DNA from: Halonotius pteroides | GTDB taxonomy: Archaea > Halobacteriota > Halobacteria > Halobacteriales > Haloferacaceae | Assembly: GCF_003605635.1 (NCBI RefSeq) | Contig: NZ_QMDW01000013.1 | Coordinates: 1 to 64,000 of the forward strand | DNA length: 64,000 bases | Reading direction: 5' to 3' | In this document: in pieces, positions 20,632-23,292 of the stretch | Numbering within the stretch: the first letter of the stretch is position 1 | How the letters are laid out: each line of letters begins with the position of its first letter | Notes under the pieces: model-generated | The model's database searches: none | What the model was told of the DNA's origin: nothing | What the model saw: only the letters and a program-made list of their open reading frames with translations | Translations under genes and position numbers: made by a program

Positions 20632-21027
20632 CTACCTGTGATCAGCACTGTCCTCCGGCGGTTCGGCGGCGTGCTCGCGGAGTTCCTCGACCGAGAGCTC
20701 ATCGAGGACGCCCTCGCTTGTCGCTTCGAGCACAACCGGCGGCGCGTGGCCAACCTCTCGGGCTTCGATCCACCGGGGGAGACAGATACACCAGCGGTCG
20801 CCCGACTGTAACCCGGGAAAGCCGAGTTCCGGCCGCGGGGTGATGAGATCGTTGCCCTGTTCGCGGCTGTACTCGAGGAACTCCTGTGTCATCACCGCAC
20901 AGATCTCGTGGCGGCCGGGATCACGTTGCAGCTGTCGGCAGTGCCCGTCGCGCAAAAACCCGGTTTCAGGACGCTTACTACAGGGCTGTAACTCGCCACC
21001 CACCACATTGTGTTCGGTGTCGCTCAT
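20632..21027 (-). CDS. DUF2237 family protein
   Basis: 131 aa. Matches DUF2237: NVVGGELQPCS..PETGFLRDGHC, a conserved CAVMT.EFLEYS, and PELGFPGLQSGDRWCICLPRWIEA, with several conserved Cys residues (PCS, GHC, EICAV, WCICL). Small, cytoplasmic, of unknown function. The last 20 residues are an acidic tail (ELREHAAEPPEDSADHR). The ATG at 21027 is used because upstream frames are non-native. It is divergent from the gene at 21136. Confidence 0.85.
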   Translation of the reverse strand: MSDTEHNVVGGELQPCSKRPETGFLRDGHCRQLQRDPGRHEICAVMTQEFLEYSREQGNDLITPRPELGFPGLQSGDRWCICLPRWIEAREVGHAPPVVLEATSEGVLDELSVEELREHAAEPPEDSADHR

Positions 21028-21135
21028 GCCGGCATTTCCGGCTACGGCTGTATAGCTATTCGGCCCAACGTGTCCTTTTGTCGACTCCCAACCCCAAGCC
21101 GCGGGGCTTATTCGCGCCCCTCGATAAGCAGCGGT

Positions 21136-21861
21136 ATGGAGCCGACGACGACCGGCCGGTTTCGCGTTCTCGACCGTCGCCCGGATGGCACGATCCTGCT
21201 GGTCGATCTTGCCAACGCTATCGCTGCGGCAACCGGCGAGGATCCCGACGCTGATCTGCGCCCGATCGCCGTCACCCCACCAGCCGTCGATGACCCGAAG
21301 ACCGACGCACACGATATCGACGCCGAGACAGTCGACACGATCAGATCGCTGGAACCCGGCTACGTCGTCGAGGCCGAACTCGCCTGGGACGACAGCGACG
21401 CCGCTTTTCTTGACTGTACGATCACGAACCGCACCCGGATCCAGTACGCCGATGGCGTGACTGGCCTCTTTGAGAAGGCCCAGGAAACGTGGCACGACGC
21501 ACAGGTCGCCGGCGAGGCGATGAACTCCGCGGTGACCTACAGCACCGGCAAGGAGCCTAACGGCGTCGTCTACGTGTTTGCCAAACAAGACCCGCCACGA
21601 GACCTCTTTGAGGAGTTTCGGACGGGCGCAACGCCGATCGAACCGCTGATACAGCGTGTTAACGCTACCCACGATGGGGGTGCTGCTGATACCACCGCCG
21701 ATGACGATGCGGTCGACAACGCGTCCGACGACGAGGCCGAGCGTGCCGTTTTCGTTCTCAACCCCGCCGACGAGCCGTTTGTTGTGGTGTATATCGTTTT
21801 CCGCAAAGACGGCATGTTGGCTCAGACCGTCCGCGATACCTACGGGTTGCCGGCTATCTGA
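21136..21861 (+). CDS. uncharacterised haloarchaeal protein, probably DUF6663
   Basis: 241 aa acidic soluble protein. The N-terminal TGRFRVLDRRPDGTILLVDL and the central ETWHDAQVAGEAMNSAVTYS..KEPNGVVYVFAK resemble the haloarchaeal DUF6663 group; the name is given with moderate certainty. An acidic low-complexity insert lies at about residues 180-208. No catalytic motif was recognised. The ATG at 21136 starts the first conserved strand. It ends shortly before the hairpin cluster at 21877. Confidence 0.65.
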   Translation: MEPTTTGRFRVLDRRPDGTILLVDLANAIAAATGEDPDADLRPIAVTPPAVDDPKTDAHDIDAETVDTIRSLEPGYVVEAELAWDDSDAAFLDCTITNRTRIQYADGVTGLFEKAQETWHDAQVAGEAMNSAVTYSTGKEPNGVVYVFAKQDPPRDLFEEFRTGATPIEPLIQRVNATHDGGAADTTADDDAVDNASDDEAERAVFVLNPADEPFVVVYIVFRKDGMLAQTVRDTYGLPAI

Positions 21862-21876
21862 ATGCGATGAGAGAGC

Positions 21877-22000
21877 GGCGGCCCTACTGGGGTAGCACCG
21901 GCCGCCAGGGGCGTGGACACAACACATGACCCGTCGGTGGGTGGGAACCGACGGCCGATGGGATGGCCCCATCGGATGTACTGATCGTTACCCATGTAAC
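21877..22000. ncRNA. tandem hairpins in a convergent intergenic region, candidate structured RNA
   Basis: Four stems follow one another. (1) 21877-21906: GGCGGCC-CTAC-TGGG-GTAG with a 4-nt bulge, then GGCCGCC. (2) 21931-21954: CCGTCGGT/ACCGACGG, 8-nt loop. (3) 21955-21975: CCGATGGG/CCCATCGG, 5-nt loop, directly abutting (2). (4) 21987-22000: GTTAC-CCAT-GTAAC. All stems are perfect apart from the bulge. No known RNA family is recognised. It could be a non-coding RNA on either strand or a bidirectional terminator/3' UTR structure. Confidence 0.4.
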
Positions 22001-22046
22001 CGCTGCGCCGCGTTTCAGAGCCAGAAAACCCCAGCGAGCGGACTGC

Positions 22047-22655
22047 TCAGAACTCGCCGAGTCTCGACTGGCCGTCGCCATCATCGTTGCCGCCGTCGCC
22101 CAGTCCAGCAAGCCCAACCGCCGACACGATCGTCTCCTCGAAGCCGTCTCGCTGACTGGCGTCGTACAGCGTCGCCGCCGGATGCATCGACAGCAACACC
22201 CGCTGTGAGCGATCGCCAAGCCGACAGTCGACAACGTCGCCCGCCTCCTTTGTGATCGCAACCGACCGATCCAGCAGGTGCTCGCTCGGCACCTTCCCGA
22301 GAGTGACGACCAGCGTCGGATCGACGGTTTCGATCTCGGTCTCCAGATAGCCGCGGCAGTTGGCAAGCTCGTCAGTTGTCGGATCACGGTTATCTGGGGG
22401 TCGACACCGAACACAGTTGGTGATTCGTACAGCCGATCGATCGACGCCGGCGTTATCAAGCGCGTCATCAAGCACCGAGCCCGATCGGCCGACGAAGGGT
22501 TCGCCCGCCTCGTCTTCATTCGCGCCGGGGGCCTCGCCAACAAACACCAACTCGGCATCATCTGGGCCGACGCCGTTGACAATCCGACTCCGGGAGGCGA
22601 CAAGGTCGGGACACTGTTCGCAGTCGGTGACACACCGGCCGTCGAATCCGTCCAT
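22047..22655 (-). CDS. udg: uracil-DNA glycosylase, Fe-S (type 4/5-like)
   Basis: 202 aa. Removes uracil from DNA. Motif 1 is GEAPGANEDEAGEPFVGRSG (about 40-59) and motif 2 is MHPAATLY near the end. Cys residues at C..CEQC in the first 18 residues and C-x15-C (CRPP...ANC) around 90-106 fit the [4Fe-4S] cluster of this class. The ATG at 22655 gives MDGFDGRCV; an extended frame upstream would add an Arg/Pro-rich stretch overlapping the next gene. It lies 22 nt after the DUF99 gene, so the two are probably co-transcribed. Confidence 0.88.
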   Translation of the reverse strand: MDGFDGRCVTDCEQCPDLVASRSRIVNGVGPDDAELVFVGEAPGANEDEAGEPFVGRSGSVLDDALDNAGVDRSAVRITNCVRCRPPDNRDPTTDELANCRGYLETEIETVDPTLVVTLGKVPSEHLLDRSVAITKEAGDVVDCRLGDRSQRVLLSMHPAATLYDASQRDGFEETIVSAVGLAGLGDGGNDDGDGQSRLGEF

Positions 22656-22677
22656 ACCAACCGGTGGGGCGGGCGGC

Positions 22678-23292
22678 TTAACTGTCGGTCGGTTTGTCGG
22701 TCGCCGCGTCGCCGGCGGTCTCCCAGCCGAACCGCTCGGCCTGTTGGCGTCCTGCGCGGGCAGCCCGTTGAGCGACCCGGAGCGGTTCGGGACGCTCGTT
22801 GCTGTCGGGAGTAAACGCACGAAGGATGTCGGTGGCGTCGACCGTGTCGATGCCGACCGTTCGGAGCCACAGCTCAGTGTCGTTGACGGTGACTGGTTTA
22901 CGGGCCGGGAGCTCCCGGTAGGTAGCCAGCCGTCGATCTAACGCCTCGCCAGAAAAGTGCTCTCGGAGCGGTTTCTCCAGTCCATTGCTCTCCTCGAATG
23001 CGACCGCGATCACCGGCCGGTCGGCGGCCGCGTGCACATCGTCGAGAGAAATGAGGTTGAACCACGCGGGGGCGACACCGGCGAACAGTACCCACTGAGC
23101 GTCCGGTCTGTCCAGCCGGTCGAGTAGGTCATCACACGCGGCGGTCGCATCGCTACCACCGGTCGTACAACGCGCGAAGGCACACTTCTCAACGACGCGG
23201 TCGGCACGAACGACGGCCCCACATAACTGGCTGTAGTCAGGGCCATCGGAGGCGGCGATGCCGACCGCCCGACTGCCGGGCTTCGGAGCCAT
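22678..23292 (-). CDS. DUF99 (UPF0215) endonuclease-V-like protein
   Basis: 204 aa. RAVGIAASDG at the N terminus and AVVRADRVVEKCAFARCTTGGSDAT match the archaeal DUF99 family, which has an endonuclease V-like fold and is thought to act on deaminated bases. Later blocks FAGVAPAWFNLISLDDVH and RPVIAVAFEESNGLE are also typical. Catalytic residues could not be assigned with certainty. Its position 22 nt upstream of a uracil-DNA glycosylase supports a role in repair of deaminated DNA. Confidence 0.83.
   Translation of the reverse strand: MAPKPGSRAVGIAASDGPDYSQLCGAVVRADRVVEKCAFARCTTGGSDATAACDDLLDRLDRPDAQWVLFAGVAPAWFNLISLDDVHAAADRPVIAVAFEESNGLEKPLREHFSGEALDRRLATYRELPARKPVTVNDTELWLRTVGIDTVDATDILRAFTPDSNERPEPLRVAQRAARAGRQQAERFGWETAGDAATDKPTDS

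Follow-up and report, generated by a model that had tools for sequence, protein, structure and literature searches.

Four consecutive hairpins had been noticed in a short spacer between two convergent genes of Halonotius pteroides. The question raised by this locus is whether the hairpins form a structured RNA of their own, belong to the 3′ ends of the neighbouring messages, or are chance stems in a GC-rich sequence. The window was the whole stretch of DNA analysed, 64,000 nt of contig NZ_QMDW01000013.1, and all coordinates refer to it.

Location of the hairpins

The features of the locus are as follows.

21136–21861, + strand: DUF6663 gene (PF20368), by Pfam family match
21862–22046: convergent spacer of 185 nt between the stop codons of the DUF6663 gene and udg
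21877–21906: hairpin 1, 7-bp GC stem and 16-nt loop
21907–21930: linker between hairpins 1 and 2, containing GGCGTGGACACAACACAYGA
21931–21954: hairpin 2, 8-bp stem and 8-nt loop
21955–21975: hairpin 3, 8-bp stem and 5-nt loop, directly abutting hairpin 2
21987–22000: hairpin 4, 5-bp stem and 4-nt loop
22010–22030: conserved 21-nt block, GCGTTTCAGAGCCAGAAAACC in H. pteroides, 17–37 nt past the udg stop
22047–22655, − strand: udg, family-4 uracil-DNA glycosylase (PF03167; TIGR00758 above its cut-off)

All four stems of the original prediction were present at these positions in the 185-nt spacer, with hairpins 2 and 3 abutting. Two further pairings are possible. The linker could pair at 21912–21928 as CGTG-GACACAACA-CAYG, and the 21-nt block contains a potential stem TTTC-AGAGCCA-GAAA (22013–22027) with an invariant 7-nt loop. 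With a GC content of 0.65, the spacer was richer in GC than the typical convergent spacer of the same genome (median 0.57, n = 23).

The ORF list showed long ORFs crossing the spacer in H. pteroides. In the relatives these ORFs were interrupted, or most of their residues were changed. A coding explanation of the spacer was rejected on account of 1–2-nt indels, stops, and frames that were not kept in the three species. The claim that no coding frame explains the hairpins was thus upheld, no reading frame being kept among the three Halonotius species compared.

Excess over chance and folding energy

Perfect stems with 7 or more base pairs and loops of 3–20 nt were counted in dinucleotide shuffles of the spacer and in other spacers. 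Three such stems were found in 2 of 4000 shuffles. For comparison, genes were called with a codon-usage script on parts of six H. pteroides contigs, which yielded 214 spacers of 80–400 nt. Four of these had three or more such stems, and of the 19 that were convergent only the DUF6663–udg spacer itself did. Hairpins 1–3 were therefore confirmed as real and above chance expectation. The predicted hairpin density beyond the ordinary stood for these three against shuffles and genome spacers, and fell away for hairpin 4, which was not kept in the relatives.

The spacer folding energy was only mildly unusual. The z-scores for 21850–22020 were −2.58 (+ strand) and −2.01 (− strand). The exact spacer had a z of −1.19 (60 shuffles), the sixth lowest among the 19 convergent spacers. 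The core of hairpins 1–3 gave −1.97, −2.46, and −1.30 in the three species on the + strand and −1.63, −3.85, and −2.13 on the − strand.

The three further spacers that reached this stem count were L107 2939–3311 (C93 62939–63311), L108 5619–5956 (C93 85619–85956), and L130 17253–17431 (C82). Each of these three, out of the 214, had a folding z below −4. A search of the three loci at Rfam gathering thresholds returned only two tRNAs, both outside the three-stem spacers. One of these matches covered 179 nt (L107 1603–1781), which suggests an intron-containing tRNA gene.

Sequence conservation

The core (21875–21981) was 83–92% identical among the three species with gaps left out, whereas the flanking genes were 70–81% identical at fourfold sites. 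Hairpin 1 had an invariant stem; the 7–8 differences of the relatives from H. pteroides all lay in its loop. The linker was identical at 21/23, 22/24, and 23/23 aligned positions in the three pairwise comparisons. The stretch containing hairpin 4 (21976–22009) was 53–59% identical, gaps left out, and hairpin 4 was not kept in H. roseus or H. aquaticus. It was taken as a chance stem on the grounds of this non-conservation. The 21-nt block was 86–95% identical (18–20 of 21 positions, gaps left out), better kept than the sequence separating it from hairpin 3.

With the better gene calls, the identity of the whole spacer was 0.76 (pteroides–roseus), 0.75 (pteroides–aquaticus), and 0.80 (roseus–aquaticus). 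The corresponding medians for divergent and tandem spacers were 0.69/0.65, 0.81/0.89, and 0.71/0.74, so that the spacer exceeded them in two comparisons and fell short in the third. The comparison could be made for just two other convergent spacers, with identities of 0.65 and 0.59. An initial, cruder set of gene calls placed the spacer third among 7 convergent spacers for roseus–aquaticus and first among 4 for pteroides–roseus; for pteroides–aquaticus it was the sole convergent spacer compared. Exceptional conservation of the whole spacer was not supported, its overall identity being ordinary for intergenic regions.

Covariation and strand preference

In the two relatives, 44 of the 46 pair cells of hairpins 1–3 were kept when read as − strand RNA (P 0.0175) and 43 when read as + strand RNA (P 0.05), by column permutation within the core. 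Column permutation over the whole spacer gave P 0.0011 (+) and 0.0001 (−); these values were set aside because they mostly reflect a core better conserved than its surroundings. With the linker stem added, P was 0.0144 and 0.0028.

In hairpin 2, two pairs had both partners changed in a compensatory way. The double-change cells numbered two by one count and three against H. pteroides, one change being common to both relatives. In H. roseus the stem was extended to at least 11 bp. For hairpin 2 alone, double changes had an uncorrected P of 0.017; over all three stems P was about 0.09, from three sequences only. When all six stems were tested, the observed share of paired cells was reached in 9 of 500 shuffles, and the covariation score in 37.

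The pairs were somewhat better retained on the − strand. Of the 8 pairs of hairpin 3, H. aquaticus kept 6 in + strand RNA and 7 in − strand RNA, and three pairs in this species were retained solely as G-U, in − strand RNA. The mean pair probability of the three hairpins in − strand RNA was 0.78 (H. pteroides), 0.85 (H. roseus), and 0.64 (H. aquaticus); in + strand RNA it was 0.82, 0.62, and 0.19. Consensus folding of the three sequences yielded the three hairpins on the − strand and favoured a different long hairpin on the + strand.

These results weakly suggested that structure is maintained at the RNA level. The candidate structured RNA of the original prediction was partly supported, by the invariant stem of hairpin 1 and the compensatory changes of hairpin 2, and not by hairpin 4, which was lost, or by hairpin 3, which was eroded on the + strand in H. 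aquaticus. The covariation support from three sequences was weak: P was about 0.02–0.05 for retained pairs and about 0.09 where both partners had changed.

Distribution among relatives

The region was present in three Halonotius genomes only, H. pteroides, H. roseus F9-27, and H. aquaticus F13-13, always between the DUF6663 gene and udg. In a DNA search of 60 genomes, own included, the long matches besides the own one were in H. roseus (80% over 162 nt) and H. aquaticus (78% over 160 nt), at the same locus. The search gave a match at E ≤ 1 in 43 of the 60 genomes; matches outside the three Halonotius loci were at most 54 nt long, with E ≥ 0.0048.

Covariance-model and pattern searches for a wider family found none beyond the three Halonotius (392 genomes of the order, 170 of the family). 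The linker pattern occurred without mismatch in 3 of the 392 order genomes, which were the three Halonotius, and with up to three mismatches in 126. The mismatched matches were taken as chance, since a reversed control pattern also matched here and there. The covariance model R1 gave E ≤ 0.5 in 13 of the 170 family genomes under stricter Infernal filters. Scores above 100 bits were obtained by the three training sequences only. The next match (39 bits, H. aquaticus) lay inside a 323-aa ORF which, read by eye, resembles a ROK-type sugar kinase, and was taken as chance.

The H. pteroides genome contained one full copy; five other matches up to E 10 were each at most 24 nt. A repeated or mobile element, in the sense of more than one copy, was thus not found in this genome. 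Plasmids and phages gave no match to the region at E 0.01, and viral contigs no exact match to the linker. Five matches to a hairpin 3 string were seen in viral contigs.

A fourth Halonotius member (G004) had both the DUF6663 gene and udg, with 31 nt between the stops. In another assembly (G001), the DUF6663 gene was not found and the udg relative was only 36% identical; this assembly is 73% complete and hence uninformative. In a genome of another genus (G016), a CBS-domain gene lay between the DUF6663 gene and udg (L030 1083–1457, Pfam). The spacers of G070, G025, and G085, read by eye, contained sequence similar to this gene, and those of G025 and G085, of about 1.3 kb, seemed to contain a further Lrp/AsnC-like regulator gene. 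The best relatives of the CBS-domain gene in five Halonotius genomes were at most 42% identical.

Search for RNA-gene and terminator signals

Searched against Rfam up to E 5, the spacer gave no match; two weak matches in 21000–23000 fell inside genes. A scan of 21780–22080 for TATA-like hexamer patterns found none on either strand. Nothing in the Rfam, TATA, copy-number, and wider-family searches pointed to a stand-alone RNA gene. No Halonotius transcriptome was recognised from the titles and abstract beginnings of the papers listed in searches for the genus.

The terminator scan of 21600–22400 returned zero terminators. No T-run directly followed a hairpin, and the longest in the spacer was 3 on the + strand and 4 on the − strand. 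The lone − strand TTTT precedes the hairpins and is TTT in both relatives. Of the 86 strands of convergent spacers counted in these genomes, 28 had a T-run of at least 4; the absence of such runs is therefore uninformative, and the missing + strand T-run was dropped as a special sign.

Comparison of explanations

Chance stems in GC-rich sequence, similar in three species only through close kinship, are an unlikely explanation, though not a negligible one. The raised GC content, the ordinary spacer identity, the loss of hairpin 4, the erosion of hairpin 3, and P values of only 0.02–0.05 for retained pairs fit it. It is opposed by the rarity of three stems among the shuffles, by the uncorrected P for double changes in hairpin 2, and by a hairpin 1 stem that stayed invariant although its loop changed. 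It is very unlikely that the cluster is a DNA-level element, either a group of protein-binding palindromes or what is left of a small insertion. The full copy is single, plasmids, phages, and viral contigs lacked the region or its exact linker, and the three pairs kept in H. aquaticus only as − strand G-U favour RNA. On the other side, the cluster is missing from G004 and its palindromic arms are usable as DNA sites.

It is rather unlikely that the spacer encodes a small non-coding RNA of its own, about 100–150 nt long, made of hairpins 1–3 and the linker and acting by base pairing via the linker or the loops. Both neighbours point toward the spacer, so a 3′-UTR RNA suffices; in addition, TATA-like hexamers and Rfam matches were not found, and the region occurred in three congeners only. 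For such an RNA speak the nearly invariant linker, consensus folds compact on both strands, and the many intergenic sRNAs of haloarchaea, described as primarily 50–200 nt (PMC7002113). The Halonotius region is like these in intergenic place and size range and, unlike them, has no promoter-like site and lies in a gene-end context. A Halonotius-specific structured RNA without described relatives could also come from the udg 3′ region, its linker pairing with targets or binding a protein; this is quite doubtful. A 3′-end role for the two convergent messages would explain as much as an RNA gene, with less.

The preferred explanation, with a probability of about 0.5, is that three lineage-specific, GC-rich hairpins are clustered where the convergent messages have their common 3′ end, and act chiefly in udg-strand RNA, in termination or 3′-end protection. 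From its position and the strand preference, we infer this 3′-end role and, with it, transcription of the region, a preferred strand, termination, and 3′-end protection. Transcripts entering the spacer, mainly from udg on the − strand, would form hairpin 3 first, then hairpin 2, and last hairpin 1. The folded hairpins would slow RNA polymerase and may help to release it ahead of an antisense run into the DUF6663 gene. The structured 3′ end left behind would resist exonucleases. The location between convergent stops, the stem count above shuffles and most genome spacers, and the core identity above that of flanking fourfold sites count for a 3′-end role. So do the compensatory changes of hairpin 2, the higher pair retention and pair probabilities in − strand RNA, the lack of a TATA-like hexamer, and the hairpins known upstream of some haloarchaeal termination sites. 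G004, which keeps the gene pair without the cluster, the lack of a T-run after the hairpins, the ordinary overall identity of the spacer, the mainly T-stretch intergenic signal of Haloferax volcanii, and the basis of three sequences only count against it.

Comparison with known systems

In the account of Haloferax volcanii termination sites (PMC7237163), 503 sites are described as having a hairpin upstream, at a distance of up to 10 nt. A single hairpin from a coding region was tested in vivo and gave 59% termination. A T-stretch motif at 748 of 807 intergenic sites is given there as the main intergenic signal, and no clear accessibility signal is described around termination sites in general. 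The Halonotius cluster is similar in that hairpins lie near haloarchaeal transcript 3′ ends, here predicted from sequence. It differs in its three strong successive stems with no T stretch after them, whereas the hairpin tested in Haloferax volcanii lay in a coding region. Bacterial hairpin clusters have been proposed to terminate with less dependence on the U-run (PMC8355165). They likewise consist of several adjacent hairpins, between operons; they were described for bacterial genomes, and the Halonotius cluster is one archaeal locus.

The cluster is most likely a familiar kind of 3′-end structure, lineage-specific and not surprising. As it stands, it is a single lineage-specific 3′ region, and the general picture is unchanged. 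Should the hairpins prove able to end transcription where no T stretch follows, the locus would offer a small, self-contained system for studying how archaeal polymerase uses RNA structure to terminate convergent genes.
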